Below the pieces are notes generated by a model, which was given only the letters and a program-made list of their open reading frames with translations, was not told where the DNA came from and did not search any database. From Planctomycetaceae bacterium (GTDB lineage: Bacteria > Planctomycetota > Planctomycetia > Pirellulales > PALSA-1355), in contig PLYM01000088.1 in assembly GCA_003153375.1 (NCBI GenBank), positions 1-45,939 of the forward strand: a stretch of 45,939 nucleotides of DNA, in the 5' to 3' direction. The position numbers and the translations under genes are program-made. Shown piece by piece: positions 2,764 to 37,946 of this stretch (position 1 is the first letter of the stretch; the number at the start of each line of letters is the position of its first letter).

Positions 2764-2778
2764 GGGAACGCCGTTCCC
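2764..2778. promoter_or_regulatory. 15-nt palindrome
   Basis: GGGAACGCCGTTCCC is a perfect inverted repeat of 7-nt arms around one base, directly abutting repeat A copy 2. It has operator-like form with no known regulator. Confidence 0.35.
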
Positions 2779-3093: not shown

Positions 3094-3273
3094 ATGAAGC
3101 GAATCATCACGTTCTGCATGCTGTTGAGCCTAGCCACCGTCCTCACGGTCGGCTGCGATAAGAAGGCCACCGACGCCAAGAAAACGGAAACAACCGTCAC
3201 GACGCCGGCAGGTTCGACCACCGTCACGGACGAGCAAAAGGTAGAAACAAAGACGGCGCCGGACGCGAAGTAG
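3094..3273 (+). CDS. Small lipoprotein (59 aa)
   Basis: The start MKRIITFCMLLSLATVLTVGC is a lipoprotein signal peptide ending in the lipobox LTVGC, with Cys21 as the lipidated residue after signal peptidase II cleavage. The mature part is only about 39 residues, rich in Lys, Thr and Asp, with a TTVTTPAGSTTVT stretch; it is probably disordered and held at the membrane surface. AGGAG at 3080-3084 sits nine bases before ATG and fixes the start. It stands as a single transcription unit closed by a terminator at 3295-3320. Such short Lys/Thr-rich lipoproteins are common in planctomycetes; no function is known. Confidence 0.85.
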   Translation: MKRIITFCMLLSLATVLTVGCDKKATDAKKTETTVTTPAGSTTVTDEQKVETKTAPDAK

Positions 3274-3283
3274 TTTCCCGCAA

Positions 3284-3324
3284 GCATAAAGAAGCCCCAT
3301 CCGAGCCGGTGGGGTTTTTTATGC
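3284..3324 (+). terminator. Intrinsic terminator of the lipoprotein gene
   Basis: The stem CCCCAT.C (3295-3301) pairs with GGTGGGG (3308-3314) over about 7 bp and is followed by six T (3315-3320). Outer GCATAAA/TTATGC bases extend the symmetry. Confidence 0.85.
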
Positions 3325-3376
3325 GCTGAACGCGACACAGCCAGCCTAACGCACGCGAGGGTGAACGCCCCGCATA

Positions 3377-3496
3377 TCACCGCCGGCCCTTTGCGCTCAC
3401 CAGCACGTCGAACAGCTCATGGCGGCGGGTGCGCTCGATGCGCGGGTCGGAAAGATTTTCAAACGGTGAAAAAACTGCAACCAGGCGATCCGACAT
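3377..3496 (-). pseudogene. ISAs1-family transposase, N-terminal remnant
   Basis: 39 codons starting MSDRLVAVFSPFENLSDPRIERTRRHELFDVL match the DDE_Tnp_1-associated N-terminal segment of ISAs1/H-repeat transposases, whose signature is DPRxxRxxxHxLxDIL. After VLVSAKGRR the frame ends, where a full transposase would continue for more than 300 residues; the DDE domain is gone. The original ribosome site GGAGG is intact eight bases before ATG, so the scrap could still be translated. The break probably marks a deletion or insertion. Confidence 0.7.
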
Positions 3497-3639
3497 GATA
3501 AAACCTCCGAAAGAACGTGCTCCACGAAGGAATCAAAGCCAGCCCACTTGCCCTTTTCCAGCTACGCGAAATACTGCCGAAGAATTAGATGCGATTGCCG
3601 TGGGCTATACTGGGAAGCACACCTCATCAAGGAGACTCT

Positions 3640-3834
3640 ATGGTTTACATGAACGTCCGGGACCGCGAAAGCATTCAGGAAGCGGTCCGACGGTTCCGCA
3701 AATTGGTCGAGCGGAGCGGCACGAAAAGAGAAATGAGGAAACGCGAATACTACGTGAAGCCAAGCGAGACGATTCGCCATAATCGTCAGCGGGCGATCCG
3801 TCGTGCGAAGGCGGCAAAACTTGAGGGCGGCTAG
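3640..3834 (+). CDS. rpsU: 30S ribosomal protein bS21
   Basis: The 64-residue protein [27 protein letters not shown] has the bS21 signature and then the basic tail [32 protein letters not shown]. bS21 sits on the 30S platform beside bS18 and the 3' end of 16S rRNA and assists initiation on many mRNAs. The ATG at 3640 is chosen over an upstream one because AAGGAG (3629-3634) lies five bases before it and it begins the conserved domain. TATACT at 3606-3611 could be a -10 box. The gene is monocistronic here, between IS debris and a convergent large gene. Confidence 0.95.
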
Positions 3835-4176
3835 ACCCGCAAACCAGCGAGTTAGCCTCACGTGGTCACTTTTGGCCGTGGACTAGAAAACAAGAAATGC
3901 GCGGCGGACAGTAGGAATGCGCGAGTCATGAAATCCCATCTGTCCGCGATCAGCCTGGCAACACTCCACGCACGTGGGCCTGGCTTGCAACCGGTAGTTG
4001 TTAGCCCCCGTGCATCGTTAGCATACACCTCGCCCCACGTGTGGGCCGTGGCCTCGGTGTTTGCAGTCAACGTCGTCAGCTCGCAGGTTGCCAGATGACG
4101 CTGCGAATGTAGCACGCCGGGGGTCTTACAGTCTCCACTTGACGATCTTGAAGGAGCTAAATTGCAACATCGCGGC
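3835..4176. other. Intergenic, no gene seen
   Basis: This stretch lies between the convergent rpsU and the large glucan synthase gene. It contains the G/C-rich near-palindrome CCCACGTGTGGG near 4034-4045 but no hairpin with a T-run. Frames here are short and not protein-like. Confidence 0.6.
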
Positions 4177-7100
4177 TCATCCGATCTCCACATCTACGGA
4201 GTGTTCTTGGCGATCATCGATCAGATGAATGGCCTTGTCGAGTTGATCGACTCCGTCGAGGATAACTCGGGTAGCTTCGCGGCCACCATTGTTCTTGACG
4301 GTGACGTGATAAAACGTGTCGCGGTAGCGGTAGTGCAGTTTGAAGAACCGCCACTCGTCCGGCAGACACGGGAAGAACGACAGCTTATCGACTTCCAACC
4401 GCAGGCCAAGTAGCGACTCGACAATAAGCCGGTACATCCATGCGGCTGACCCGGTATACCAAGTCCATCCACCGCGACCGGTGTGCGGCGCGACGGCATA
4501 CACATCCGCGGCCACGACATACGGCTCGACTTTGTAGGTCGCAATGCCCACCGGCGTCGACCCGTGATTGAGTGGGTTGATGAGCGAAAGCAGTTCCCAC
4601 GCGCGCCGCTGGTTGCCCAGGGCGGCAAACGCCATCACGGTCCAGATCGCCGCATGCGTGTACTGGCCGCCGTTTTCGCGGACGCCCGGCACATAGCCCT
4701 TAATATAGCCCGGATCCAGTGGCGATTTGTCGAACGGCGGGTCGAACAACTGAATTAATGAGTGCTCTCGTCGTACAAGACGGTCGTTAACGGCCTCCAT
4801 GGCCTGCCGAGCTCTCTTCGGGTCCCCGGCTCCGGACAGGACCGACCAGCTTTGGGGGATCGAATCGATTTGGCATTCGAGGTTGCTGGCCGAGCCAAGT
4901 GGCTCGCCGCTATCGAAGTAAGCGCGGCGGTACCACCCGCCGTCCCAAGCGTTCTTTTCGATGTTCTCTTTCAATTGCGCGATCTGGGCGACACATTTCT
5001 CGGCAAAAGCCGCGTCGGCCCGCAGGTGAGCGACCGTCGAGAACTCCTGCAACACGTGAACCAGGAAGAACGCCAACCATACGCTCTCACCTTTCCCCTG
5101 CGCGCCCACAAGATTCATCCCGTCGTTCCAGTCCCCGCAACCAATCAACGGCAGGCCGTGATCGCCGAACCGCAAACCGTGCTCGATTGCACGGACGCAA
5201 TGCTCATAGAGAGTAGCGGACTGATCCGATCGACCAGGCAGGTCATAATATGCCTCCTCGTCCGGCTGGACTGGGCGGCCCTCGACGAACGGAATCTGCT
5301 CGTCGAGTACGCCCGTGTCGCCGACCTGTTTGACGTACTGGCATGTGGCCAGAGGCAACCATAAAAAGTCGTCGGAAAAATGCGTGCGCACGCCGCGTCC
5401 GGTGGGAGGATGCCACCAGTGCTGCACGTCTCCTTGGACAAATTGATGGCCCGCGGCCCGCAGCAGATGTTCGCGCATCAACCGGGGCTCTGCATGCACC
5501 AAGGCCATGACGTCCTGCAACTGATCACGAAACCCAAACGCGCCGCCTGACTGGTAGTAGCCGCTCCGCCCCCAAAGGCGGCAGGCCAAGGTTTGGTAGA
5601 GCAGCCAACCGTTGACCAAAGTGTTGACACCCTGGTCAGGGGTTTCCACGTACACGGTGCCCAGCGTTCGCTGCCAGTAATGCCAGACGCCTTGCAGGGC
5701 TCGGCGCGCCGGCCCAGCGCCTCGATAGCGCTGGATCAGTCCGCGCGCTTCCTCGATACTCGGAGCGGCTCCCAAAATAAATACTATCTCACGTTCCTGC
5801 CCTGGCGCAATGTCGAACTCCGATTGCATCGCACCACACGGATCGAGTCCCGGCCCGACCTTGCCCGAAAGTCGCGTACGGCCCATCGCCGATGGTTTGG
5901 CTGCCGTGCCATTGCGTCCGAAGAATTCGGTACGGTCGCCGGTAATTGTGCGGAGCGGCTCATTGAAATCGAGAAAGGCAACCCGGCCAGGAAACTCTGA
6001 GTTGTAGGGGTTACGAGCGAACAGCGCCCCGGTTTTAGGATCGACTTCGGTCAGCACGTGCATGAGCGATTGAGGACGCAACTCCGCCAGTACCCATTCC
6101 AGGCAGCAGGTCGCCGAAAGCCGGCGTGTTCGTTCGGATGTATTACTAACCTTCAGCGAAAAGAATTTTATCGGCGCGTCCATCGCAACGTACACCGTCA
6201 GCTCTGTTGCTATGCCATTTTCAGTCGTCTCAAAGACGCTGTAACCGAAGCCATGTCGGGTGACGTACGCGTTTTGGCCAGGCGCCGGCAGAGGCGTGGG
6301 AGACCAAAAGTGCCCACTTTCCTGATCTCGCAGGTAAAACAATTCGCCACTGCAGTCGGTGACCGGATCGTTGTACCACGGGGTGAGCCGAAACTCGTGG
6401 GCGTTTTCGAACCAGGTATATCCGACGCCGCTTTCTGTTACCACGGTGCCGAACTGAGGGTTGGCCAGGACGTTCGCCCACGGGGCCGGCGTCCGCTGAG
6501 AGGGCCCGGTCGTGATCACGTACTCGCGACCGTCGGGCGTAAAACCGCCCAGTCCATTCGCATAAATCAGCTCACGGAACGGCAACAAGTCCCTGTGGAC
6601 GACCTCGGCCCTGTGGCCGCGTATTGGGACAAGCGATGGCATGCTTATTTCGCGGCGGCCTCGCCGCTCGATCTGGTCCGCTAGGATACCGCCGCTATCG
6701 GTCAATACGACGCGAGCCACACTTTGCATGAGAATGCGGTCTTCGTCGGACATCTGCTCAGGCCGCCGCACAAAAATTCCGCCCGGTCGGTCGACGACAT
6801 GAGCCTCGGTGCTGCCAGCGATTAGGTTTAAGATGTCGTCCTGTAATAATTGCCGGTATCCCGACTGATCTTCGTTCCAAATCACGAGATCGACGGATAA
6901 CCCTTTAAATCGCCAATAGGCATGGGCATGGATGAGCTGACGCACTAGGTCGATCTTGCTTTGATCGGCAATTCGCAGCAGAGCAATCGGCAAGTCGCCG
7001 GAGATACCGTGTCCCCATAAACCCGATTGACCACGCACGTTCTTGCTAAGAACGCTGGCATTAGCACGGCACAACCCGCTGGAATAGATAATCGAACTCG

Positions 7101-10100
7101 CCAAGCGGCCGTAGAGTTGGGCTTCGGCCTCCGTGACGTTGAGTTGCTGCAAGATCACTTGGCCGTGCGTCCAGGCCAAGTTAAGTGAACGGTCGGCCAA
7201 ATCCCGGTCGTGGTATTTTTCGACGAGTCCTAGTGCCGATTCGCGCGTTTCCGCGACGCCGGAGACGACGTCGATCACGGCCGTTTCCTCAGGTTCAATG
7301 GTAACCGTGCAGCGAATGGCAACGATCGGGTCGAGCACCGAGCCCGCGCTGTTCGAAAGCGCCATCGGGCGGGCCATTGCCTGCGGGTCGGCAACATCGC
7401 GCCCACGGCCAAGAAACTTGGCTCTGTCGGTTTCATAGGAAGTCATGCCGGCCGACGTGCCATGCACAGAGATTAAATGCAACAGCCATGGCGGATGTTC
7501 TTGATGCGAACGGGGCCGGCGTGTACACAAAATGGCCTGAGAGTTGGGGATAATCTCTGTCTGGACGAACAAGTTACTGAAGGCGGGATGGGTCGCATCG
7601 GCAGCCGCGCTGGCCAAGACCACCTCTGCGTAGCTTGTCAATTCAACCGTGCGTGGAAATCGGGAACAGTTCGTAATGCTTATTCGGCGCAGCTCGACGT
7701 CATCTTCGGGTGATACGGTCACTTCGGTGTGCGTTTCCAACTCAGCGTCGCGTCGCCGAAATTCCGCCCGTGACTGAGAAAAAATAGCCTCGTAGGCTGA
7801 AGACGGCTTGAGCGTCGGCTGAAAACCTACGGACCAGACCTCGTTGGACGCAACGTCACGCAGATAGCAAAACGTGCCCATAGCATCGCGCGCGACATCT
7901 TCGCGCCAGCGTGTTACCGCGATGTCGTTCCAACGGCTATATCCGCCGCCCGCGTTAGTGATCATGACGTGGTAGCGACCATTGGACAGCAAGTGCACTT
8001 CCGGAACCAGCGTGTGCGGCGTTTTCAGGACGCGCATCAGGACCTCGGACCCAGTGGCAGGTCGAGGCGTCTCAGCGCTATCGGCCGAGCGTGGATAGAC
8101 GGGCGCCGACTTCGGAATTCGCTCGTGCAAGAGCAAGGCAGTGGCTTGAAACGGCGGATACGCCTCAAACCGTCGCTGCATCGGCCGATCGAGCAGTGCA
8201 TAGGCAAGAGACAAGAAACCCATCCCTTGGTGATGAGCCATGAACGACCGCACGACGGCAAATGACTGGCCAGGCGTGAGTCGCGCCGGCGTGTAATCAA
8301 TTGCCTCGTAGTAGCCGTATCTGCCTTCAAGGCCGGCAGCGGCCATGCGTCGCAGATTGGCGCATGCCGGCCTGGGAGCAACCATCAACGCCATCAGTGA
8401 AGCGTACGGCGCAACCACGAGATCGTCGGCAAGGCCCCGTTTGAAGCCCAAGCCGGGCACGCCGAACGCCCGGTACTGATAGTTCAAATGAACATCCGTG
8501 AGGTTATATCCCGACTCCGACATCCCCCACGGAACCTTGCGGCTTGCGCCGTAGGCGATTTGCCGCGCAACGGCCGTCTTGCATGTTTGGTCGAGCAGGG
8601 TGTCGTCAAAGCTGGGCATGACCAGTAACGGCATCAGATACTCAAACATCGAGCCGCTCCAGGAAAGGAGCGTGGGCGAGCCGTCAAATCCTGTCAACAA
8701 TCGCCCCAGTGCAAACCAATGCTCTTGCCGCAATTGACCTTGCGCGATAGCAACGAAACTAGTTAGCCGAGCCTCTGAAGCCAACAGATCGTAGAAGCCG
8801 GCGTCACGCCGGTGATCAGCTAAGTTGAAGCCAATCGCCAGCAATTTTCGAGACTCGTCGAACAGGAAGTCAAACTCAGCATCGCTGAACTCGAGGCACG
8901 TCCGGGCCAACTGTTCGTGGGTCGCCATCCGCGCAGCGGCGTGGCCGCTGACCTCGCTGATGCGCTGTTTTAGTTGCGCGAGCCAATCGCGATGTTCGTC
9001 TGGCTTCGCCAGAAGTACATCGAGGACTCCGGACAGGTCTAAGCTCAGTTGGGCGGTTTCCCGCAGAGTGACTTCGCCACCCAGCCGCGCAATTGCCGTG
9101 CGCAGTTGCAGCACTGCGTCTGCCTCGTCCGGCGCGGTGCTCTGCCAAAGAGAGGGGGGCGGTGGTGGCAACGCGATCAGCGGCGCCAATAATTTCACCT
9201 CGTCAAGCCAAGCTTGGGCTTGCCGCGTCAAGGCGTTTGCCCACCAGCGAACCTGCTCGTCGGGATGCGCCATTAATTCGGCGATTGCCGTGTGTTCGCC
9301 GCTGGCTAGGCCAGCGAGCAAATGACCATCGACTGCAAGCTTGGGCGATGTCTGCAAAAGCTCCTGTTGAAGCTGCTCAAGGCGGTGGAGCGGTTGCAGC
9401 CCTTCGTCGTCCGATGCGCGCCCGACCGGACGACGTTCGGCCGGTGCTGCCGTGCGTACCGCAGTGAGCAGGACCCGCAGTGTAACGCTCAGCCCAAGCA
9501 GGGCCATGGGCGGAAGAATGTTTTGATCAGCCAGTTGCAACAGCCCCTCACGCAGGGTGAGCAAATGGCCGACAAGGTTTCCACTATCGACCGTCGAAAC
9601 ATAGCGGGGATGAAGTGGCTCGAGCGTGCGGGTGTCGTACCAGTTGAAAAAGTGACCCCGGTACCGCTCTAGTCGCTCCATGGTCGCTAAGGCTTTGGTA
9701 GTCCGTTCCTCCATTTGACCGGCCGAAATAAATCCAAAGTCATAAGCGGCCAAGTTCGACAACAGCGCAAGGCCCATGTTCGTGGGCGATGTCCTGTGGG
9801 CAATGACGGCCACCGGATAATCCTGATAATTGTCGGGGGGAAGCCAGTTATCTTCTGGGCCGAAGAAAGTTTCGAAAAACCGCCATGTTTTGCGCGACAG
9901 CTCCTCGAGAAACTCCGTATCGTCCTGATTCAAACGAGCCGCGGTGCTGGGCAGCGGACGACTAAGCCACCAGGCGATTGCCGGAGACATCAGCCATAAA
10001 CCGAGCAGTGGAACGGAAGCCGGTAAAGCGTCTGCCCGAAATTCGGCAATGTAGCCTCCCAGAAGGAGTGCCGAGACAGGCGCGACCCACATCGCCCGAA

Positions 10101-13086
10101 GTGCGCCGGCCAAATCTGTCGGCGCGCCTTGTTCCGCGTCGGTGGACGTGCGCCATTGGAGCAAATTGCGTCTCGTAAGGGTCAACCGCGTCAGCGTGCG
10201 CAGCACCGCGTCCAAGTTGTAGTAGGCTTCGTCGGGCAAGAAAGCCAATGTGCACACCGCCTGCGCCGTATAACGACCCAAAGACCACAGGACGTCGCGC
10301 AGATGCAGCCGCCACGAAAGATCGGGCGGCCGCTTGATTGATTCAACGACTACCCGCAGGCCAACTGGCAACAGCATGATCGCCAGGACCAACAGGGCCC
10401 AATACGACGCTGGCCACACGGGAATCACCCAAGACAAGCCGAGCAAAAACATTAACGCGGCGGGCACCAGACTGCGCCGCAGGTTGTCTAAAATCTTCCA
10501 GCGGGACAACGCCGAAAGTGGGTTCTTTCCGAGCGATCCTTGTTGTTCAGGCGCCCATGGCAACGCCCACATTGCGATTTGCCAGTCGCCTCGAATCCAG
10601 CGATGCCGGCGGCTGGTGTCGGCGCCGTATTGGGCCGGGTAGGCCTCATACAGCTCGATATCGCTGATCAACCCGGACCTGGCATGGCATCCCTCCAGGA
10701 GGTCATGACTCAGGATCAGGTTTTCTGGAAACCGACGGCTCAAAAGCCTTTCAAAGGCATCCACATCATAGATACCCTTGCCGATAAATGAACCTTCCTG
10801 GAACCAATCCTGGTAGACATCCGACACGGCTCCCGTGTAGGGATCGATGCCGGCCTGGCCGCCAAAGATGCGAACGAACCAAGAGCGTCGCGCGCTAGGC
10901 AAGCTCAAAGCGACACGGGGCTGCAAGATACAGTACCCATCGCAGATCATATTCTTCTTGTCGTCGAAACAAGGCCGGTTCAATGGATGGGCCATGGTTG
11001 CGACTAACTTGCGGGCGGCTTCGCGTGGCAGCTGAGTGTCTGAGTCGAGGGTGATCACGTACTTTACTTCGCCAAACGAGCTTGTGTCTCCGACGATTAG
11101 CGAAAACCGATCGCGCACGCCGCCGCGAAGAAACGCGTTCAAATCGGCGAGTTTTCCGCGCTTCCGCTCGTAACCCATCCAGACTTGTTCTTGTGGGTTC
11201 CAGCGACGAGGCCGATGAAATAAGAAGAAAATATCGTTGCGTTCAGCTTTGTACTTTGCGTTTAGCGCCCCAATTCCTTCCCGTGCTTGGTCGAGCAGGG
11301 AATCGTCGTCGGGCATCACCTCGGAAGGGGCATCGCGCCAATCGGTCAGCAAAGCAAGATGGAGATGCTTATCACGGCTGGCGAGGTAACGAACCTCCAG
11401 CGCTTCAATCAATTCACTAACGCCCTGAGGACTAGTCAGCATCGTGGGTACGGCCACTAGAGTGCGACACTCAGGGGGAATCCCATCGGAAAAGTCCATG
11501 CGAGGCAGGGCCCTCGGGCTCACGAACATGGTTACCAGCCAGTTGACGATGGCCACACCGAGGTGGCTTGTACCCAGCAGAACCAGGAGTGTCATTGGCG
11601 CGAGGAGCCAGAGGCCCGCTCCATACCGCCACGCCTGGAACAGTGCTGCCGTGGTCACGGCGAGCGTGATCGATCCGGTCGCCCCCAGATAAAGCAATAG
11701 TGGATGCCGTTTGGCCGATCGCCCCAGTTTCTCACCCAGCGAAATGCCCGCCTCGGCGGCCGCTTCGAGTTGAGGCAATCCACGGTCGATTAAAAAATAC
11801 CCAACGTGAGCCGAACGCTCGCGAACCCCTTTCACGTCGGCGGCCTGTTTCGCCAACCGGACTGCCTCTGCGGCCACCTGCCACTCGGAAAGCCGGCTGC
11901 GTTTAGCAATCCGTTCGACGACATGGCGATATCGGTCGCGCGTGGCGAAATCCATTTCGCTGTAAACGTCTGAATACTCTTGTATGGCTTGAATGACCTG
12001 GCGATAGTCGCGTGAGCTATTGTTCAAATCACCGAAGTCGCCCGGAGAAAAACCACGCAAGGTCTGTTCGACGAAGCTGTGTGATTCGACAAACGTGCGC
12101 CAGTCCATGGCCGCCAAAAACTGCAGACTGCCGATACTGTTGCCAATTGAGACTTGATCAGCCGCATGTTGTTGCCCCTCGATCTGCATCAGCTGCTCGA
12201 CGGTGACAGCCTGTTCGGCCAATCGGTGTTCAACCCACATCAACGGCAACGCCATCGCATGAGTTTGTTCGTGCAGCCGGCGGGCAAACTCGGTCGCAAA
12301 CTCGCTGTCCATCGCCGGAGCCGCGCGAGTCATCTCCGCCATCACGAGGACCAAGGATTTTGGGTCCTTTTCGACTGCCTCGATCATCCGATCGGCCCAA
12401 GCATTGGCTTCGTCCCGGTGCAGACGGGCTGTGGTCATGCGCGCGGCAACGCGGCGCAGATTCTCAATCAACGCCAGGCGAAGCATGATCGGAATGGCCC
12501 ACAGTTCTCCAAGGGTGAGCGGAGTGACGGTTTGGTAGGCCGCTACGACGGAAGTCAGGCTTTCGGCACTCACTCGGCCGTCGACGTGCGAGATCAGCTC
12601 CAAGGCAATGTCGTACACCCGCGGAAAGCCGCTCGAGGGTCCTCGAAGCAGCCGCGGAAGCTCAGTACTATAGTTCTTGGGCAGATGGCGGCGGGCTGTG
12701 CGGATCTGCTCTTCGATCAGGTAGAAATTGTCCAGCAACCATTCGGCAGCCGGCGACGTTCGTCGGTTGGCTGCCACGGCGGCCGCGATCAATTGATAGG
12801 CTTTGAGCAGAACTGCTTCGTTCTTCTCTAGGCGACTGAGCAGCCGGTCCGGCCCGACCCGCTTGTCCACCTCATGCCAACCGGCCAAAGCTTTAGCATG
12901 CTGTTCAAGTTGGTCCGTGGTGAATAGCTCGGATCGCAACGGTTGCTCGTCACGCTCTTGTAGCCGCTCGTGCCTAGCGCGCGTCATCAGACTCAACATC
13001 CGTCGTCGCAAATCGCGATGCCAACCATCCAACCGATCTCTCCCTGCATAACTTCGGAAAAAAACAGACCAAGAGCAAATGGGCAT
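4177..13086 (-). CDS. ndvB: Cyclic beta-glucan synthase, NdvB/ChvB type (GT84-GH144-like-GH94)
   Basis: At 2969 residues it is close to the ~2800-2900 of NdvB/ChvB, which make periplasmic cyclic beta-glucan. In order: an N-terminal helical region (EWLLDNFYLIEEQIRTARRHLP near residue 120); membrane helices at about 465-530; a GT84 domain with ITLDSDTQLP near 680 and the UDP-sugar motif RRHRWIRGDWQ near 829; more helices at about 870-910 and 995-1040; a glycoamylase-like domain (PWGMSESGYN near 1520); then sugar-binding and GH94 phosphorylase domains with FRDQLQD near 2520 and the catalytic Asp in GCGDWNDGMN near 2655. By analogy the enzyme starts, elongates and cyclises glucan at the inner membrane and trims length by phosphorolysis. 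The start is uncertain: no ribosome site precedes 13086, and ATGs at 12999 or 12987 are alternatives. It is a single gene with no transporter or modifying gene beside it. Beta-1,2 versus beta-1,3 linkage cannot be read from sequence. Confidence 0.9.
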   Translation of the reverse strand: MPICSWSVFFRSYAGRDRLDGWHRDLRRRMLSLMTRARHERLQERDEQPLRSELFTTDQLEQHAKALAGWHEVDKRVGPDRLLSRLEKNEAVLLKAYQLIAAAVAANRRTSPAAEWLLDNFYLIEEQIRTARRHLPKNYSTELPRLLRGPSSGFPRVYDIALELISHVDGRVSAESLTSVVAAYQTVTPLTLGELWAIPIMLRLALIENLRRVAARMTTARLHRDEANAWADRMIEAVEKDPKSLVLVMAEMTRAAPAMDSEFATEFARRLHEQTHAMALPLMWVEHRLAEQAVTVEQLMQIEGQQHAADQVSIGNSIGSLQFLAAMDWRTFVESHSFVEQTLRGFSPGDFGDLNNSSRDYRQVIQAIQEYSDVYSEMDFATRDRYRHVVERIAKRSRLSEWQVAAEAVRLAKQAADVKGVRERSAHVGYFLIDRGLPQLEAAAEAGISLGEKLGRSAKRHPLLLYLGATGSITLAVTTAALFQAWRYGAGLWLLAPMTLLVLLGTSHLGVAIVNWLVTMFVSPRALPRMDFSDGIPPECRTLVAVPTMLTSPQGVSELIEALEVRYLASRDKHLHLALLTDWRDAPSEVMPDDDSLLDQAREGIGALNAKYKAERNDIFFLFHRPRRWNPQEQVWMGYERKRGKLADLNAFLRGGVRDRFSLIVGDTSSFGEVKYVITLDSDTQLPREAARKLVATMAHPLNRPCFDDKKNMICDGYCILQPRVALSLPSARRSWFVRIFGGQAGIDPYTGAVSDVYQDWFQEGSFIGKGIYDVDAFERLLSRRFPENLILSHDLLEGCHARSGLISDIELYEAYPAQYGADTSRRHRWIRGDWQIAMWALPWAPEQQGSLGKNPLSALSRWKILDNLRRSLVPAALMFLLGLSWVIPVWPASYWALLVLAIMLLPVGLRVVVESIKRPPDLSWRLHLRDVLWSLGRYTAQAVCTLAFLPDEAYYNLDAVLRTLTRLTLTRRNLLQWRTSTDAEQGAPTDLAGALRAMWVAPVSALLLGGYIAEFRADALPASVPLLGLWLMSPAIAWWLSRPLPSTAARLNQDDTEFLEELSRKTWRFFETFFGPEDNWLPPDNYQDYPVAVIAHRTSPTNMGLALLSNLAAYDFGFISAGQMEERTTKALATMERLERYRGHFFNWYDTRTLEPLHPRYVSTVDSGNLVGHLLTLREGLLQLADQNILPPMALLGLSVTLRVLLTAVRTAAPAERRPVGRASDDEGLQPLHRLEQLQQELLQTSPKLAVDGHLLAGLASGEHTAIAELMAHPDEQVRWWANALTRQAQAWLDEVKLLAPLIALPPPPPSLWQSTAPDEADAVLQLRTAIARLGGEVTLRETAQLSLDLSGVLDVLLAKPDEHRDWLAQLKQRISEVSGHAAARMATHEQLARTCLEFSDAEFDFLFDESRKLLAIGFNLADHRRDAGFYDLLASEARLTSFVAIAQGQLRQEHWFALGRLLTGFDGSPTLLSWSGSMFEYLMPLLVMPSFDDTLLDQTCKTAVARQIAYGASRKVPWGMSESGYNLTDVHLNYQYRAFGVPGLGFKRGLADDLVVAPYASLMALMVAPRPACANLRRMAAAGLEGRYGYYEAIDYTPARLTPGQSFAVVRSFMAHHQGMGFLSLAYALLDRPMQRRFEAYPPFQATALLLHERIPKSAPVYPRSADSAETPRPATGSEVLMRVLKTPHTLVPEVHLLSNGRYHVMITNAGGGYSRWNDIAVTRWREDVARDAMGTFCYLRDVASNEVWSVGFQPTLKPSSAYEAIFSQSRAEFRRRDAELETHTEVTVSPEDDVELRRISITNCSRFPRTVELTSYAEVVLASAAADATHPAFSNLFVQTEIIPNSQAILCTRRPRSHQEHPPWLLHLISVHGTSAGMTSYETDRAKFLGRGRDVADPQAMARPMALSNSAGSVLDPIVAIRCTVTIEPEETAVIDVVSGVAETRESALGLVEKYHDRDLADRSLNLAWTHGQVILQQLNVTEAEAQLYGRLASSIIYSSGLCRANASVLSKNVRGQSGLWGHGISGDLPIALLRIADQSKIDLVRQLIHAHAYWRFKGLSVDLVIWNEDQSGYRQLLQDDILNLIAGSTEAHVVDRPGGIFVRRPEQMSDEDRILMQSVARVVLTDSGGILADQIERRGRREISMPSLVPIRGHRAEVVHRDLLPFRELIYANGLGGFTPDGREYVITTGPSQRTPAPWANVLANPQFGTVVTESGVGYTWFENAHEFRLTPWYNDPVTDCSGELFYLRDQESGHFWSPTPLPAPGQNAYVTRHGFGYSVFETTENGIATELTVYVAMDAPIKFFSLKVSNTSERTRRLSATCCLEWVLAELRPQSLMHVLTEVDPKTGALFARNPYNSEFPGRVAFLDFNEPLRTITGDRTEFFGRNGTAAKPSAMGRTRLSGKVGPGLDPCGAMQSEFDIAPGQEREIVFILGAAPSIEEARGLIQRYRGAGPARRALQGVWHYWQRTLGTVYVETPDQGVNTLVNGWLLYQTLACRLWGRSGYYQSGGAFGFRDQLQDVMALVHAEPRLMREHLLRAAGHQFVQGDVQHWWHPPTGRGVRTHFSDDFLWLPLATCQYVKQVGDTGVLDEQIPFVEGRPVQPDEEAYYDLPGRSDQSATLYEHCVRAIEHGLRFGDHGLPLIGCGDWNDGMNLVGAQGKGESVWLAFFLVHVLQEFSTVAHLRADAAFAEKCVAQIAQLKENIEKNAWDGGWYRRAYFDSGEPLGSASNLECQIDSIPQSWSVLSGAGDPKRARQAMEAVNDRLVRREHSLIQLFDPPFDKSPLDPGYIKGYVPGVRENGGQYTHAAIWTVMAFAALGNQRRAWELLSLINPLNHGSTPVGIATYKVEPYVVAADVYAVAPHTGRGGWTWYTGSAAWMYRLIVESLLGLRLEVDKLSFFPCLPDEWRFFKLHYRYRDTFYHVTVKNNGGREATRVILDGVDQLDKAIHLIDDRQEHSVDVEIG

Positions 13087-14071
13087 TTCTATGATAGCCC
13101 ACTGACCGGTGCACCTCTACTTCGACCTGAAGAAGGTGTTCGAATAACGGAGGGAGCGCGTTCCGGTGCGACAAAAGTGGGGAAGGAGGGCTTACGCGAG
13201 TCAGTGCAGCACACGACTCGGACCACAGCAGCGTTGCTTCGCTGCATTTCCTCGAAGAACCATTTATTAAACCTGAGACGAACATCCCGCGTAAGGGCAT
13301 TGGGCGGTCGGTTCCCATTTCATCGAAGCGGCGGGGTTGCCACGATCATCAGCAATCCACGGCCGCAACTCATTGACGATGTCGATTGGCCGATTGATCC
13401 GTTTTTCCACGACATCCTAAGGGAATACCGCTTCATCGTTTTGGAAATCTCGCCGCTCCACACCCATTGCCGGCAATTGGGCACCCGTGAGATCCAATGT
13501 CTTTGCTTTGATTCCTGGACTTAAGTCCCCATTTTTTAGGACTCTCGATGGCCTCGTTCAGGCGAGAGAGACCCCAATTCTAGCGGATGGTCGCCGCGTC
13601 GCGATTCTTTTCCCGGCCATTTTTGTTTCGCCGCGCAACCTGGTGTCTTCGCCACATCAACCAAGGCAGCCGGCGCAACCTCGAAGACTTTCCTTGCCGC
13701 GATCATCACTGTTACTGTGTTCCAAAGGGGCACATGGGCTGTGCGGTGTAGGACCACTGTTGATCGAGTTTAGTGTCGGTTCGAGGGAGGGAACTCCGGC
13801 GAAGGCCAGCAACATCAAGGTTTGCTACTGGGTATCGCGGGCCGTCGCTACGACGAAAAACGTCTTGTCGTTCAAGACCCACGTGACGCAAAGACCAGCA
13901 CCGGACCGAACGATGAGACGCAGACTCGATCCGGCACGCGAGTTGCGGACGCTAGGAGGATCAGGGGCGCTAGCTGGCCGGCGCGAGCCGCGATACTCGC
14001 TGGCGAATAAGCAAGTCAGCCCCCCAATGCGAGCTCCCATCAACGCAACTTCTCACCTAGGAGATCGAGCT
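13087..14071. other. 985-nt region without a recognisable gene
   Basis: Upstream regions of the minus-strand glucan synthase and plus-strand csbD-like gene meet here. An open plus frame runs from 13487 into the CsbD gene, but its upstream part is Arg/Pro/Ser-rich and unlike protein. No transposase motif, hairpin terminator or RNA gene was found. Promoters for both genes must lie here but no good -35/-10 pair stood out. Confidence 0.5.
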
Positions 14072-26286: not shown

Positions 26287-26947
26287 ACAGCTTAGTGGCC
26301 TGAGCTGGTTCGTTTAGACGCCATCCTGGGCATTTCTTTGGCCCCTCGTCGCGCAGGAACACCTCTTCGGAGATCCCGGCAATCACGGCCGTGATTCCAA
26401 ACCGCGCGGCCGAGCCGGGCAGGGTAATTGCGTGTTATCGCGCTTTCCGTCTCCTAAAACGAAATGAACTCTTGATTTTCATCGTGAATCGACTGCCGAT
26501 TCAAGCCTGCTACGTTGCGGGCGAGGCGTGATGAACTGCCACGATTGGGCGTGGTCACGATCGACGGGAGCATCCTTGCTCGAGGTGGCCAAGGTGGCAT
26601 GGGTGACCCGGGAGCCCAACGCGCGAGCTGGACGGGCGGCTGCCGGCAACTTTGGGTTCAGATTCCGCGTCGACCGCCTGCTGCAATTGAGCGATTTGTT
26701 TTGCCCGTCGTCGCACCTGGTATTTGCAATTCTACTGCTGGTACGTCATGTCTGCAGGCCACCGCAAACAATGCTGTTCAATCCTTGGCACTTATCTTGT
26801 CGCGCGGTACGCTGGGAGCGAGGGCTAGTTTCGGCGGGCGTTCGACGTGGCCAGGACTAAATCAAGACGAGTCCGATGCCAGCACGAGAATTGTCCAGCA
26901 GCTCATCGCCTTGCCGAATCTTTCCAAAGAATTGCCAACGGATTGCC
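26287..26947. other. Upstream region of the malic enzyme operon
   Basis: A 660-nt stretch without a supported gene; the open frames at 26515 and 26528 are Arg-rich and motif-free. It contains a perfect 16-bp palindrome at 26381-26396 (listed separately). Promoter boxes were not convincing. Confidence 0.5.
26381..26396. promoter_or_regulatory. Perfect 16-bp palindrome, operator-like
   Basis: AATCACGGCCGTGATT is fully self-complementary. It lies about 550 bases before the malic enzyme gene, far for an operator but inside its only upstream region. No regulator gene is adjacent. Confidence 0.3.
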
Positions 26948-28588
26948 ATGACTGATACTCCTCGACAACCGCTCACCGGTTACGCGCTGCTTCATGATCC
27001 TCATTTCAACAAAGGAAGCGCATTCTCTGAGTCGGAACGCCTTGCTCTGGGCATCGAAGGGCTGCTGCCGCCTGTTCCCGCGACGCTGCAGATTCAAATT
27101 GCCCGCGTAACAATGCAGCTTTCGTTCCTCGACAGTGACCTGCAGAAATACCTCATTCTGTCAGATTTGCTGGCTCGCAACGAGACACTGTACTACGCGG
27201 TGTTAATGTCCGACCCGGCGACGTTCATGCCGCTGGTCTACACACCGACCGTCGGTGAAGCGTGCCAGAAGTTCGACCATTTTCTTCGCGCGCCGCGCGG
27301 CGTGTATCTTCCGATTACCGCACGGGGCCGCTTGGTCGAACTTCTCGGGAATTGGCCCGAGAAGGATGTGCGCTTTATTGTGGTGACTGACGGCGAGCGC
27401 ATTTTGGGCCTCGGCGACCTCGGCGTCGGCGGGATGGGAATCCCCATGGGCAAGCTTTCGCTCTACACAGCTTGCGCCGGCGTGCCCCCGAAGCTTACCC
27501 TGCCGATCACACTCGACGTCGGCACGAACAACGAATCCCTGCTCAATGATCCGCTTTATCTTGGACTGCGCCACCAGCGGGTGCGGGGCGCAGAATACGT
27601 GGCGTTCATAGAAGAATTCGTCCAGGCCGTGCAACAACTATTCCCCAAGTGCTGCCTTCAATGGGAGGACTTCGCAAACTTCAACGCCGTTACCATCCTG
27701 GAAAGATACCGCGATAAGATCTGCACCTACAACGACGACATCCAGGGCACTGCGGCGGTCGCCCTTGCCGGTATCTTTGGTGCCTTGCGCATCTCCAACG
27801 AGCAATTGACCGATCAACGGTTTCTCTTCCTCGGAGCCGGATCGGCGGCTACCGGTATCGCGGAACTGATCAGCGAGGCGATCACACTGGAAGGCGGCAC
27901 GATCGATCAAGGGCGCGCCCGGAATTGGCTCTTCGACGTCAACGGGCTGATGGTCGACTCGCGCAGCGACGTGGCCGACTTCCAAAAGCCCTTTGCCCAC
28001 TCGCACGCGCCCGTGAGCTCCTTCGTCGAGGCAATCGAAGCGATTAAGCCCACTGGCATCATTGGCGTGAGCACGGTGCCAAAGCTCTTCAACCGGCCGG
28101 TGATCGAAGCCATGGCGCGGATCAACAAGCGTCCGATCATTTTTCCCTTCTCAAACCCGACCTCACGGTCTGAATGCACGGCGGAAGAAGCCTACAAATG
28201 GTCCGGTGGCCGGGCCATTTTTGCCAGCGGCAGCCCGTTCCCGCCGGTCGAACTCGACGGCCAAAGATTCATTCCCGGCCAAGGAAACAATGTATATATC
28301 TTTCCTGCGATGGGTATGGCCGTGCTCGCCACTGGGGCCACGCGGGTCACCCAGGCCATGTTCATTAGCGCTGCGAAGGCAGTGGCCGAACAGGTGACAA
28401 ACGCCGATCGTGCCTCAGGCCTGATTTATCCGCCCCAGAGCCACATTCTCGACGCCTCACTCCATACCGCCGCCCGGATTGCCGAACACGTCTTCGACCA
28501 GGGTCTCGCTTCCGTCCCGCGACCGGAAAACATCGACGAGCACGTGCGGGCCGCTGCCTACCGACCGGTTTATTCATCGCCAGTATAA
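26948..28588 (+). CDS. maeA: NAD-dependent malic enzyme
   Basis: The 546-residue protein matches large-subunit malic enzymes of the SfcA/MaeA and eukaryotic type: start GYALLHDPHFNKGSAFSESER, the malic_N signature FMPLVYTPTVGEACQKF, ICTYNDDIQGTAAVALAGI, the nucleotide fold FLFLGAGSAATGIAEL, and the end PFSNPTSRSECTAEEAYKW with PGQGNNVYIFPAMGMA. It oxidatively decarboxylates malate to pyruvate and CO2 in the cytoplasm, with NAD likely the cofactor from family type. ATG 26948 is chosen because it begins the conserved domain; the frame is open from 26876 and the ribosome site is weak. Pyruvate decarboxylase starts 14 bases downstream, so they form one operon and pyruvate can pass straight on. 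Confidence 0.93.
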   Translation: MTDTPRQPLTGYALLHDPHFNKGSAFSESERLALGIEGLLPPVPATLQIQIARVTMQLSFLDSDLQKYLILSDLLARNETLYYAVLMSDPATFMPLVYTPTVGEACQKFDHFLRAPRGVYLPITARGRLVELLGNWPEKDVRFIVVTDGERILGLGDLGVGGMGIPMGKLSLYTACAGVPPKLTLPITLDVGTNNESLLNDPLYLGLRHQRVRGAEYVAFIEEFVQAVQQLFPKCCLQWEDFANFNAVTILERYRDKICTYNDDIQGTAAVALAGIFGALRISNEQLTDQRFLFLGAGSAATGIAELISEAITLEGGTIDQGRARNWLFDVNGLMVDSRSDVADFQKPFAHSHAPVSSFVEAIEAIKPTGIIGVSTVPKLFNRPVIEAMARINKRPIIFPFSNPTSRSECTAEEAYKWSGGRAIFASGSPFPPVELDGQRFIPGQGNNVYIFPAMGMAVLATGATRVTQAMFISAAKAVAEQVTNADRASGLIYPPQSHILDASLHTAARIAEHVFDQGLASVPRPENIDEHVRAAAYRPVYSSPV

Positions 28589-28602
28589 GGAACGCGTTCG
28601 AG

Positions 28603-30315
28603 ATGAACTCGGCCACGAACGAAGTGAAGATGCCGCGAGCCGCGAGCACCGTTGGCGGCCGTCTCGCCAGCCGAATTTTCCAAGCAGGCACGCGAGATTT
28701 CTTCGGCGTGCCAGGCGACTTCAACCTCGTGCTGTTGGATCAGCTTATCGCGCAACCGGGGCTGCGGATGATCGGCTGCTGCAATGAGCTTAACGCAGGC
28801 TACGCTGCCGACGGATATGCCCGCGCCACCGCCGGCCTCTCGGTCGTTGTGGTCACCTACATGGTTGGGGGCCTGAGCGTGATCAACGCCGCAGCCGGGG
28901 CTTACTCCGACGATCTTCCGCTGCTTGTGGTTTCAGGCGGCCCGAACACGCTCGACGCGCCGGCAAATCACCGCGTGCACCACACGATTGGCGAAGCGGA
29001 ACTTTATCAATGCGCGAAGTGTTTTGAGCCCGTGGTAGCCGAGACCCTCATCATCCGCCACCTTGACGACGCCGCTGGCATGATCGACCGCGCAGTAACG
29101 GTTTGCCTTACCCGTCGTAAGCCAGTTTATTTGGAAATTGCCTGCAACCTCGCGGGCATGTCACTTCCGAAACCGACGCCGATTACCCTGCCTCCATCCC
29201 GATCTGCTGCCGACCCGGTTTCGCTCGACGCCGCCGTTGCGGCGCTTACCGCGAGGATCGACGCCGCAGTAAAGCCCGTTCTTGTCGCCGGCGTCAAACT
29301 CCGCTCTGAGAACGCTACTGCCGCCTTTCGCAAGCTTGCTGACGCGCTGGGTTGCGCCGTCGCGGTCATGCCCGATGCAAAGGGACTTTTCCCAGAGAGT
29401 CATCCCGCGTTCGTCGGGACATATTGGGGCGAAGTCAGCAGTCTGAATTGTGCGGAAGTGGTCGAGTCGAGCGACTGCCAACTTTTTGCCGGTCCAATGT
29501 TCAGCGACTACTCCACAGCGGGCTGGACGACGCTCACACCTCCATCGAAACTCGTCCACGCTGGACCCGATTTCATGCGCATGGATAGCGCGGAATTTAC
29601 CGGCCTGCGGCTGGACTCCTTGCTTGATCGGCTCGCGTCAAAGGTCGCAAGAAACGCCGCGAGCCTGACCAGCTACCGACGCCTGCACATCCCGGCCGCC
29701 CTAGAGGCGGCGGCCCCGGAAGAAGCATCGCTTTCGCTCAAAGAGCTTCGCCGACAGGTTCAGTTGCTGCTTGCCGCGAACACTGACCTCGTGTTGGAAA
29801 CCGGTGACTCGTGGTTCAACGGACAGAAGCTGCATCTACCCGACGGTGCCTGCTACCACTTTCAGATGCAATACGGTTCCATCGGCTGGGCCACCGGCGC
29901 CACACTGGGCATCAGCTTGGGAGGGGGCGCCGAACGCCGCACTGTCGCGCTGATCGGAGATGGCTCGTTTCAGCTCACGGCGCAAGAGGTCTCGACAATG
30001 ATTCGCCACGGAGCAAATCCCATCATTTTTATCATCAACAATCGCGGCTATACGATCGAGGTCGAGATCCACGACGGCCCCTACAATAACATTAAGAACT
30101 GGGATTACGCAGGCTTGGTTGAAGTGTTCAATGCCGGCGAAGGCAACGGGCTTGGACTGAGCGCCGAAACTGCCGGAGAGCTCGCCGCTTCCATCGAGCG
30201 CGCAAAATCGCATGCGGGGCTGGCGCTGATCGAATGCGTGCTCGACCGCGACGATTGCACCGCCGAGTTGCTCGCATGGGGCAGCCGCGTTGCTGCCGCG
30301 AACGCGCGCCGCTAA
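28603..30315 (+). CDS. pdc: Pyruvate decarboxylase (thiamine diphosphate enzyme)
   Basis: The 570-residue protein has the PDC family features in order: DFFGVPGDFNLVLLDQL, the cofactor-activating Glu in CNELNAGYAADGYAR near residue 60, the active-site His pair in NHRVHHTIGEAE, and the ThDP/Mg motif GDGSFQLTAQEVSTMIRHG...IINNRGYTIE (from about residue 452) followed by GPYNNIKNWDYAGL. The HH pair and GYTIExxIHDGPYN favour 2-keto acid decarboxylases acting on pyruvate; indolepyruvate or phenylpyruvate decarboxylase is the main alternative. The product would be acetaldehyde and CO2. AAGGA about ten bases before ATG supports the start. It is the second gene of the malic enzyme operon. No alcohol or aldehyde dehydrogenase is in the window. 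PDC is uncommon in bacteria. Confidence 0.9.
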   Translation: MNSATNEVKMPRAASTVGGRLASRIFQAGTRDFFGVPGDFNLVLLDQLIAQPGLRMIGCCNELNAGYAADGYARATAGLSVVVVTYMVGGLSVINAAAGAYSDDLPLLVVSGGPNTLDAPANHRVHHTIGEAELYQCAKCFEPVVAETLIIRHLDDAAGMIDRAVTVCLTRRKPVYLEIACNLAGMSLPKPTPITLPPSRSAADPVSLDAAVAALTARIDAAVKPVLVAGVKLRSENATAAFRKLADALGCAVAVMPDAKGLFPESHPAFVGTYWGEVSSLNCAEVVESSDCQLFAGPMFSDYSTAGWTTLTPPSKLVHAGPDFMRMDSAEFTGLRLDSLLDRLASKVARNAASLTSYRRLHIPAALEAAAPEEASLSLKELRRQVQLLLAANTDLVLETGDSWFNGQKLHLPDGACYHFQMQYGSIGWATGATLGISLGGGAERRTVALIGDGSFQLTAQEVSTMIRHGANPIIFIINNRGYTIEVEIHDGPYNNIKNWDYAGLVEVFNAGEGNGLGLSAETAGELAASIERAKSHAGLALIECVLDRDDCTAELLAWGSRVAAANARR

Positions 30316-35273: not shown

Positions 35274-37946
35274 TTACTGGGAAACTTCAATAACCGTACT
35301 GGCGTTGCTCCCAGGGGCGGCCGATGGATAACCGCCAAGTTGGGCCGCCAACGCCTGCAATTCCTTCCGATGGAGAATCTCCGCGTGGGTACCGGGCACG
35401 AGATACACTTCGATCGGTTGCGTCGTCCAGCGAGCCCAGCCGAGCGTTGGGTCAAAACTGGCGACCGCAGTCGAGGGTACCGCGTACTGGTGCGCGACAA
35501 ACAAAGTGATCTTGCCGTCGTAGATGCGAGGCCCGTAACTTCGCAACGCCTGCATATGGAGTCGGGCCACTTTGCGGCTGGAGGGCGACAGATCGAGGCC
35601 GATGATCACGTCATCGTCGTCTCGACGGAGATTGCCTCGCCGAATGCGCTCTGCCAACAAGCGTACACGGCTTCGCAGGTAGGACCACCGACCTCCGTCG
35701 ATGCCGTACCATAAAGTCCGGCAATGGATCCGCAGCCTTTGTGGAATCGACAACTGAACGGACTCAAGCGAGAGTTGGGAATCGAGCAGTGCCAGCAAAG
35801 CCACTTCTTCGCCTTGAGCGCTCAACTGATGCGCCATTTCAAACGCGACCACACCTCCCAGGGAATAACCCGCCAAGTAGAAAGGACCTCGCGGCTGGAT
35901 GGTGCGCATCTGTTGGATGCAATGAACTGCCATCTCAGTGATGGACTGATGCGGTAGCTGACCATCGTCCAAGCCTGCAGGCCGCAATCCATAGACCGGC
36001 TGCTCCGGACCAATTTGGCGGGCCAAGCCACGAAACTCCAGCACATTACCGCCGATGCCAGGCATGCAGAAAAGCGGTGGTCGGGCTTGTCCAGTTTGAA
36101 TTGTGACCACCGAGGACTTGATGTTCGTCGCGAGCGGGTTTCGCAGCAAGTCGGCCAACAGTCGCACGGTTGGCCGCTCGATGAGCACGTCGAGCGAAAA
36201 TAATTGGCCAAATTCTCGTTCGACGCGCGCGAAGAGTCCAGCAGCCAAAAGCGAATCGCCGCCCAGCTCGAAGAAATCATCCTCGACGCCGAGCGTTTCC
36301 AGCTCGAAGAACTCTTGCCAAATGTCAACCAATCTCTGTTCGTTTTCGTCTCTGGGGGCGACGGGACTGGTTGTTGCGCGCAATTGCTTCGGGTCAAACG
36401 CGGTGAGCGCCTGACGATCGACCTTTTGGTTTGCAGTCAGTGGCAGTCGATCCAGGACGACTAAATGCGCCGGGACCAGATACTCTGGCAGGGACTGCTG
36501 CAAGAAACGACGCAGCTCACGGGCCGTCGGCGTAGGCTCTCCGGACGCCACGACATAAGCCACCAGCTGCTTGTGACCCAAGTGTTCCTTCGCTACGGCC
36601 ACGGCCTGTCCGACCGAAGGGTGCTGGCATAACGCGGCTTCGACTTCACCCAGCTCAACTCGATAGCCGCGAATCTTCACCTGGCCGTCGATCCTACCGA
36701 GGAATTCAGTGGTACCGTCTGAACACAACCGTCCCAGGTCCCCGGTGGCGTAGAGGCGTGCCGTGGGTAAATTGTTCTGCAGATTGGTTATGAACCGCTC
36801 GGCCGTCAGCGCGGGGCGCCGTAGATAGCCGCGAGCCAGACCAAGGCCGCTAATATATAACTGACCAACTTCTCCCGGCGGGCAGACGCCCAACTGCTCG
36901 TTCAATACATGGATGCCCTGATTGGACATTGCTCGGCCATACGGAATGCTCTTCCAATGAGGCTCGCATGGGCCGATGAGATAGAGAATCGACCAGATCG
37001 ACGCTTCCGTAGCTCCACCCAGGCTAACCAATTGCGCCAACGGATTAATGGCCCGTACACGATCCGGCAGGGTCAACGGTATCCAGTCGCCACTCAAGAG
37101 CACCAAACGCAAGCTGTCCAGAACTTCGTCGCGCCGGCCCGTCTGATGAGCTACGAGCATTTCCATCGCGGCCGGCACCGAGTTCCAAATCGTCACCTGC
37201 TGTTGCAAAAGCAGTTGGGCCCAGCATGCCGGTTGGCGGGCGTCGGCCGGTTCGGGAATGACAACACTTCCACCGGCTGCCCATAGCCCGAACATGTCAT
37301 AGACTGAGAGGTCAAATCCGTAGGACGAAAGGGCCAGCACACGGTCGCTCGGCCCAATGCCGAAACGTCGATTCATATCGACAATCGTATTGACGACGGC
37401 TCGATGCTCGATCATCACTCCCTTGGGCTGGCCAGTTGATCCGGAGGTATAAATTACATACGCCAGATCGGTAGCGTTTGCCTCGACACCTCCCGGATCA
37501 TTGCTGGAGTCCGGTCCTTGGGCTCGCAGGTCGTCGAGGTAGACGACCTGCGCGGACGATAGCGGCAGTTCAGCCGCGAGCCGGCGCTGCGTTAGCAGCA
37601 CCTGGACTTCGGAGTCGACGATCATGAAAGATAATCGGTCGGCCGGGTAAGCCGGATCGAGCGGCACGTAGGCGCCGCCAGCCTTGACGATTCCCAGCAG
37701 ACCGACCGCTAGATCAAGTGATCGCTCGACGTGCAATCCGACTAGCGACCCGCGTTGGACTCCGCACCGTCTCAGTCGCTTAGCCACCGCCTCGGCACGC
37801 AGTTCGAGTTCACGATAACTAAGCAACCGGTCGCCGCAGACCACTGCAACTGCCTCAGGCGCATGGCGGGCCTGCATCTCGAATAAGCCGTGCAAGGTAG
37901 CCGGTGCAACGGTCTCAAGCGAGCGGTCTCTCGTCAGAGTGGCCAT
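35274..37946 (-). CDS. NRPS module: adenylation(Cys-type)-carrier-thioesterase
   Basis: 890 residues in three domains. Adenylation, about 20-500: VIYTSGSTGQPKGVM near 168, SSYGFDLSVYDMFG, LSGDWIPL, SLGGATEASIW, YATGDLGR, and the A10 lysine in NQKVDR. Carrier: DDFFELGGDSLLAAGL near 560, Ser carrying the phosphopantetheine. Thioesterase: GYSLGGVVAFEM near 695, ALLDSQ, and PGTHAEILH near 850 as the Ser-Asp-His set. Aligning by eye to the GrsA positions gives pocket residues D, L, Y, N, L, S, L, I, W plus the lysine, the known cysteine code. There is no condensation domain, so this module alone would load and release one amino acid, or work with a partner elsewhere. No modifying or transport genes are adjacent. 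No ribosome site was clear at the start. Confidence 0.88.
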   Translation of the reverse strand: MATLTRDRSLETVAPATLHGLFEMQARHAPEAVAVVCGDRLLSYRELELRAEAVAKRLRRCGVQRGSLVGLHVERSLDLAVGLLGIVKAGGAYVPLDPAYPADRLSFMIVDSEVQVLLTQRRLAAELPLSSAQVVYLDDLRAQGPDSSNDPGGVEANATDLAYVIYTSGSTGQPKGVMIEHRAVVNTIVDMNRRFGIGPSDRVLALSSYGFDLSVYDMFGLWAAGGSVVIPEPADARQPACWAQLLLQQQVTIWNSVPAAMEMLVAHQTGRRDEVLDSLRLVLLSGDWIPLTLPDRVRAINPLAQLVSLGGATEASIWSILYLIGPCEPHWKSIPYGRAMSNQGIHVLNEQLGVCPPGEVGQLYISGLGLARGYLRRPALTAERFITNLQNNLPTARLYATGDLGRLCSDGTTEFLGRIDGQVKIRGYRVELGEVEAALCQHPSVGQAVAVAKEHLGHKQLVAYVVASGEPTPTARELRRFLQQSLPEYLVPAHLVVLDRLPLTANQKVDRQALTAFDPKQLRATTSPVAPRDENEQRLVDIWQEFFELETLGVEDDFFELGGDSLLAAGLFARVEREFGQLFSLDVLIERPTVRLLADLLRNPLATNIKSSVVTIQTGQARPPLFCMPGIGGNVLEFRGLARQIGPEQPVYGLRPAGLDDGQLPHQSITEMAVHCIQQMRTIQPRGPFYLAGYSLGGVVAFEMAHQLSAQGEEVALLALLDSQLSLESVQLSIPQRLRIHCRTLWYGIDGGRWSYLRSRVRLLAERIRRGNLRRDDDDVIIGLDLSPSSRKVARLHMQALRSYGPRIYDGKITLFVAHQYAVPSTAVASFDPTLGWARWTTQPIEVYLVPGTHAEILHRKELQALAAQLGGYPSAAPGSNASTVIEVSQ

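Follow-up and report, generated by a model that had tools for sequence, protein, structure and literature searches.

The window, that is, the whole stretch of DNA analysed here (45,939 bases), is one entire contig (C37) of a genome assembled to 6.7 Mb on 291 contigs, with a completeness of 96.4% and a contamination of 4.18%. It carries a stand-alone gene for an 890-residue protein composed of an adenylation (A), a carrier (T) and a thioesterase (TE) domain (Table 1). The reading frame runs from an ATG at 37944-37946 to a stop at 35274-35276 with no internal stops. Pfam AMP-binding (residues 22-375, 305 bits), AMP-binding_C (residues 434-508), PP-binding and Thioesterase (103 bits) each matched above the gathering score, and the NCBIfam model AA-adenyl-dom scored 438.5 bits on the protein against a cut-off of 317.4. 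The A, T and TE domains are complete with their core motifs intact, and the motifs place the putative catalytic residues at Ser565 of the carrier and at Ser695, Asp722 and His854 of the thioesterase. This is a real and intact A-T-TE gene of the cysteine type without a condensation (C) domain; it represents a variant of the single-module NRPS and no novel kind of enzyme.

Table 1. Coordinates of the A-T-TE gene and of its domains in the window.
Feature	Position	Strand	Basis
Stand-alone A-T-TE gene, 890 aa	35274..37946	-	ORF list, Pfam, NCBIfam
Adenylation domain, residues 22-508, code DLYNLSLIWK	36423..37883	-	Pfam and code reading
Carrier (T) domain, residues 537-601, GGDSL with Ser565	36144..36338	-	Pfam PP-binding and motif
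Type I thioesterase domain, residues 623-867, GYSLGG	35346..36080	-	Pfam and motif

No Condensation domain was matched by Pfam in the protein, and the upstream Cy domain of a heterocyclising Cy-A-T module was found neither by Pfam nor by tblastn in the window. For the latter, seven C/Cy queries from relatives were used and none matched below E 0.01 (the best match, at E 0.011 with 26% identity over 102 amino acids, fell on a NIPSNAP gene); the sensitivity of this search is low, as the control locus L272 was matched by only two of the seven queries, its own domain and that of L274. The A-T-TE order described in the earlier note was borne out, as was, within that sensitivity, the missing C/Cy domain.

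On one side the gene is flanked by DUF4114, VWA/Tad and TadE genes and on the other by NIPSNAP, PD40-repeat and SNF2 genes. No biosynthetic genes, as the earlier note had already claimed, and no polysaccharide-assembly genes were found among the annotated neighbours in the window. The contig fits its lineage, because the SNF2 gene and the gene next to it are collinear in a genome of the same genus, G001 (51% identity over 907 amino acids and 48% over 139), and because the A-T-TE gene has an ordinary GC content and a GC3 of 0.652, inside the range of 0.635-0.727 of 11 window genes. The source genome also contains 47 PSD1 matches against none in 14 control genomes, which fits a planctomycete origin if PSD1 is, as we assume, a planctomycete marker. 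The gene itself is accessory and patchy in its presence: it is absent from G001 and from two genomes of the same family (G002 and G003) at cut-offs of 1e-60 and 1e-150.

The specificity of the A domain was read from its pocket. By motif correspondence with GrsA, the pocket positions are D212, L213, Y216, N255, L283, S285, L309, I317, W318 and K508, an alignment-based assignment. As a check on the mapping, a synthetase of Bacillus paralicheniformis (L100) was read in the same way. Its five A domains returned, in order, DGFFLGVVYK, DLYNLSLIWK, DAW-LGNVVK, DAKDIGVVDK and DGFFLGVVY-, a series that fits the Ile-Cys-Leu-Glu-Ile order of bacitracin synthetase BacA; codes with gaps are readings from pairwise alignments. 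The window code, which stands as the earlier note had read it, is identical to that of module 2 of this BacA-type synthetase. Both DLYNLSLIWK and DLYNMSLIWK are given in the paragraph on Cys-activating domains in the excerpted text of PMC12283262. For PchE of pyochelin, excerpts of PMC11253843 give the predicted code DLFNLSLIWK, one change from the window code, and name the pocket residues F, D, L, S, G, A, T, I, W and K; the window protein has these ten letters at residues 211-213, 285, 286, 312, 313, 317, 318 and 508, the residues being matched by their motifs and by how far the PchE row is offset in the structure search. Thus, the earlier note was right to ascribe the code to the bacitracin system, whereas the predicted code for pyochelin differs at one position.

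An A-domain tree of 39 rows, chosen by code pattern, placed the window domain in a clade of 23 rows (support 97/99) that all have DLxN codes, among them the BacA-type module 2. Only loci with an A domain covered as far as residue 505 were retained. L167 was included, and L238, L240 and L241 were left out as near copies, both here and in the tree with L167 described below. A separate clade of 12 rows (100/98) contains ten DLYD codes and two DLxN codes (L054 and L276), so code and clade do not agree everywhere; L070, with a DLYD code, falls outside both clades. Within the 23 rows there is a clade of 16 (100/99) to which the window domain does not belong, with Cy motifs upstream in 10 of its members and none in the other six. 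Among structures, the best PDB match to the window protein in one stretch is BmdB (346 bits), which according to excerpts of PMC8795117 makes Ala-Cys-thiazoline from alanine and cysteine; LgrA and 8xjz, matched in two stretches, outscore it in sum.

Since the BacA-identical code, the codes in the PMC12283262 excerpts, the DLxN clade, the BmdB match and the PchE pocket letters agree, cysteine is the likely activated amino acid, as predicted in the earlier note. Unlike the Cy-containing cysteine modules (BacA module 2, PchE and BmdB module 2), the window protein has neither a Cy or C domain nor a further module, so no thiazoline would be expected from it alone.

We looked for full-length relatives in overlapping draws of 146, 392, 396 and 397 genomes (relatives, phylum, order and class, respectively), and none exceeded 45% identity over nearly the full length; for the A-T part alone, identities of up to 49% were seen. 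The two top-scoring full-length relatives, from another family of the class, are in G951 (680 bits, 45%) and G1031 (679 bits, 43%); both have DLYD-type codes, and the G1031 protein has a Condensation domain by Pfam. The third, at 648 bits, is L158 in G640. The C-A-T-TE proteins of the planctomycete family f118 (L256, L272, L273, L274 and L275) form a group that, with two members which are the highest-scoring relatives over the length of the window protein, resembles it in the A domain (46-53% identity) and in the terminal TE. These proteins differ in having a Condensation domain upstream (by Pfam in L272-L275), codes of DLYDMSLIWK or DLYDFSLIWK, and a place in another A-domain clade; the protein of the GC-rich locus L271 was read from L256.

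Stand-alone A-T-TE proteins are not rare and occur, with other codes, in planctomycetes and elsewhere. Among the loci fetched there are at least 11 in which fewer than 100 amino acids precede the A domain as aligned: the window gene, L158, L070, L022, L037, L064, L073, L074, the second gene of L272, L277 and L278. All 11 have Pfam A, T and TE matches and no Condensation match, and only the window gene and L158 have the DLxN cysteine code. The Pseudomonas 'NRPS 3' and 'NRPS 5' in the excerpts of PMC8719888 are likewise stand-alone A-T-TE proteins. All of these bacterial proteins have the domain order and size of the window protein in common, but apart from L158 their codes are different (e.g. 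DAWTVAAVCK, DASTVAAVCK, DILQLGLIWK and DIEDIG-IIK; DLYDFSLVWK in L070). The chemistry had been called unusual for a planctomycete, and this has to be divided. A-T-TE proteins with other codes recur, and first modules with a cysteine code and no C/Cy domain occur in planctomycete exopolysaccharide loci; the DLxN code in a stand-alone A-T-TE protein was found only once more among the 11 fetched.

In L070 (Pedobacter foliorum), the A-T-TE gene at 9932-13087 is directly followed by a gene that looks GNAT-like by eye. The acidobacterial L073 and L074, with codes DIEDIG-IIK or DIEDIG-ICK, are surrounded by flippase-like, chain-length-like, sugar-transferase and polysaccharide-deacetylase-like genes, with genes for A and C domains nearby by eye. 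They differ from the window gene in code and clade.

An Asp of the A domain (Asp212 in the window protein) holds the amino group of the substrate and is as a rule missing from the A domains that take aryl keto acids. The fungal quinone and furanone synthetases have the same A-T-TE order, and excerpts of PMC9047271 and PMC12105029 describe such one-module enzymes joining two identical aromatic keto acids. By analogy, the window TE might join two cysteinyl units, one on its serine and one on the carrier, into Cys-Cys or a cyclic dimer; such a reaction would require no second protein and would suit an orphan gene. We nevertheless regard it as unlikely, because the fungal precedents use keto acids, the retained Asp212 sets the window protein apart from aryl-keto-acid synthetases, and no sequence feature points to iteration.

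Possible partners were sought in the source genome. At 96.4% completeness, no other NRPS module was found in it. The next match to the window protein has 29% identity and 109 bits and contains, by Pfam, AMP-binding domains only and no carrier; only a few of the weaker matches were annotated. One of these (L284, 1808-5329 on contig C290) is 1,173 residues long and combines an AMP-ligase, a carrier and a class I/II aminotransferase domain; it adds another type of loading enzyme to the genome. A single Condensation match (40 bits) lies in a 496-residue protein near a reductase-type gene, with a polyketide synthase of 3,954 residues about 5 kb beyond. The latter (L150/L151, contig C223) has KS, AT, KR and DH domains and five PP-binding matches, with reductase-type and acyltransferase-like genes nearby. 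Two matches to the phosphopantetheinyl-transferase family PF01648 could be the source of the pantetheine arm.

The suggestion of the earlier note that cysteine is handed to another protein found no support in this survey. The window module would have to supply it in trans to some other carrier or enzyme, and the carriers at hand are the five in the polyketide synthase and the one in the AMP-ligase/carrier/aminotransferase protein; use of an A domain in trans is on record elsewhere (excerpts of PMC12400406). With no other NRPS module found and a TE of its own, which argues for release, we consider such a supply very doubtful.

A different kind of context emerged when the same A-T-TE gene was looked for in other genomes and its neighbours compared, as the earlier note had advised. 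In G640, of the same order, L158 encodes an A-T-TE protein (Pfam) with the code DLYNMSLIWK and 42% identity to the window protein over nearly the full length, and it is the last gene of a wzx-wzy-wzz exopolysaccharide operon, overlapping wzz by 4 bases. The MatE/Wzx-type and Wzy_C proteins of this operon score above the Pfam cut-offs; the matches of the chain-length protein to Wzz and GNVR are just below them. A search with this Wzz in the family of G640 gave matches in 141 of 241 genomes, and the same query gave none in the source genome of the window, which is of another family. A locus came with 30 of the matches, each from a different genome. In the seven of these that match best (E <= 6.8e-103; three genera; G640, G857, G724, G863, G583, G543 and G679), an A-domain gene follows on the same strand; the other 23 have no such gene within 1.5-kb flanks (less at contig ends). 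G640, G679, G543 and G583 are genomes of 99-100% completeness.

In the six loci besides G640, flippase-like and polymerase-like genes, two glycosyltransferase genes and wzz precede a synthetase of 2001-2026 amino acids; the neighbours have Pfam names in L206 alone, where the polymerase-like and wzz products have no match, and those of the other five loci were named by position and likeness. The L206 synthetase (L162, in G679; 2002 amino acids, A-T-C-A-T-TE) follows a protein with 39% identity to the G640 Wzz and no Pfam match. The first code is DLYNMSLIWK in five of the six and DLFNMSLIWK in one, and the second is DVQ..AHV.K. In one further locus, L167 (G022, another family), a related wzz (37% identity) ends 198 bases before a synthetase of 2058 amino acids with the codes DLYNLSLIWK and DVQFIAHVVK. 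This brings the planctomycete loci with a cysteine-code NRPS gene after wzz to eight (L163, L206, L238-L242 and L167): by Pfam, each of the seven long synthetases has the order A-T-C-A-T-TE, and L163 is A-T-TE. In excerpts of PMC12283262, Val236 and Gln239 occur in 59 of 71 proline domains; since the second code fits this pattern, the second module of the long synthetases is probably proline-like, and their product would be Cys-Pro. No report of NRPS genes inside planctomycete exopolysaccharide operons appeared among the top results of an open-access literature search. This pairing of wzz and NRPS genes in relatives is a more interesting result than the window gene itself.

Like the window protein, the wzz-linked synthetases begin with a DL[YF]N[LM]SLIWK A domain with no C/Cy domain before it and end in a TE, and L163 has the whole A-T-TE order in common with it. 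They differ in lying just after wzz and, in seven of eight cases, in having the second, proline-like module; no wzz/wzx/wzy/glycosyltransferase neighbourhood of this sort surrounds the window gene. A joint clade of the window A domain with the operon copies gave an AU p of 0.35 with the first set of rows. With the seven operon copies without L167 the value was 0.71 and the joint tree was 9.7 log-units better than the free tree; once L167 was added, it was 0.057 and the joint tree was 7.7 lower. Because there are no polysaccharide neighbours and no Wzz match, and because these tests disagree, we did not file the window gene with the wzz-linked group.

The other two domains were compared separately. 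TE trees left the window TE with no supported kin. In one of them, from which rows L087, L093, L095 and L138 were omitted together with L158 and L162 as duplicates, the three nearest rows by path were operon TEs, without support. By score, the carrier belongs with those located in front of a TE: each of the 20 T domains that scored highest is followed by one, and the median score against the window T was 135 for 55 T-before-TE domains versus 119 for 80 others. In all seven A(Cys)-T-C-A(Pro)-T-TE genes it scored higher with T2 than with T1. An origin by deletion inside such a gene was considered and rejected, as carriers before unrelated TEs score equal or higher; the difference between T2 and T1 thus indicates only the TE-preceding type.

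The carrier type also bears on another reading, that of a relic or a transient gene, its A and T-TE parts joined by loss of the middle of some larger synthetase and without a useful product. A TE-preceding carrier behind an A domain several of whose nearby relatives are first-module ones would suit such a history, as would the patchy presence and the retention in G001 of the SNF2 gene and its neighbour without the A-T-TE gene. The 890 open codons with all core motifs present, the ordinary GC3 and the second A-T-TE gene with a DLxN code in the polysaccharide operon of G640 speak for a functional gene, and we hold the relic to be improbable.

The reading we tentatively prefer, with appreciable doubt, is that of a self-contained cysteine-activating NRPS module that works as a cysteinyl transferase (an A-T-TE aminoacyltransferase). 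The A domain would convert cysteine to Cys-AMP and load it onto the pantetheine arm of its own carrier at Ser565, and Ser695 of the TE would take over the cysteinyl group and pass it to a nucleophile. Given that the protein lacks a condensation domain and that the genome yielded no further NRPS module, this would most likely be an amine- or hydroxyl-bearing acceptor, either small or at the surface. The build would be that of a first-position cysteine module fused straight to a terminal T-TE, as in the G640 operon copy. That copy and the wzz-linked group suggest that such enzymes may transfer cysteine, or a dipeptide containing it, to a polymer of the cell surface or to the precursor of one, and by analogy the window protein might do the same. 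Domain order, code, clade, catalytic motifs, C/Cy absence and the context of relatives were read from the sequences, and from these we infer cysteine use, acceptor and transfer.

The BacA-identical code, the DLxN clade, the BmdB match, the core motifs, the TE-type carrier, the G640 copy and the two PF01648 matches are consistent with a transferase. Against it, the predicted TE might hydrolyse instead of transferring, the gene has neither exopolysaccharide neighbours nor a Wzz match in its genome, and it is not united with the operon copies in the trees. The two closest full-length relatives by score also appear not to be C-less (by Pfam for G1031), the TE has no resolved kin, the gene is absent from G001-G003 and the genome has its 4.18% contamination. 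If both the cysteine prediction and the transfer role hold, the protein would be a minimal cysteinyl transferase, made of one protein and independent of any assembly line.

A broader proposal, which we regard as a long shot, is that planctomycete NRPSs with a first cysteine module put cysteine or Cys-Pro on exported polysaccharide as a thiol-bearing coat, the window protein being a one-module, C-less cysteinyl transferase of that type outside the operon. If so, the conserved wzz-NRPS pairs would tie peptide-synthetase chemistry to planctomycete exopolysaccharide assembly, and a surface glycan that carries thiols would matter for metal binding, cross-linking and attachment. A more general link between TE-ended planctomycete NRPS genes and polysaccharide genes was tried in a crude phmmer screen and set aside: markers were found at 6 of 29 loci versus 1 of 14 control stretches, but L163 and L164, which are among the six, had supplied queries and so match by construction. 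The wzz comparison above is the better test. At L164 (G049, 367-13843), a locus rich in glycosyltransferases that also has a WecG-family gene, there is a C-A-T-TE gene (C by motif only) whose code is DLYDMSLIWK.

Two further observations concern the window outside the A-T-TE gene. On the forward strand, at 26876-30315, a malic enzyme gene is followed after 14 bases by a gene for a pyruvate/indolepyruvate-decarboxylase-like TPP enzyme, which scores below the NCBIfam cut-offs; the pair could convert malate to acetaldehyde. On the reverse strand, at 4177-13086, a protein of 2,969 residues contains glycoamylase and GH94 parts, a build that we take to be that of cyclic beta-1,2-glucan synthases.
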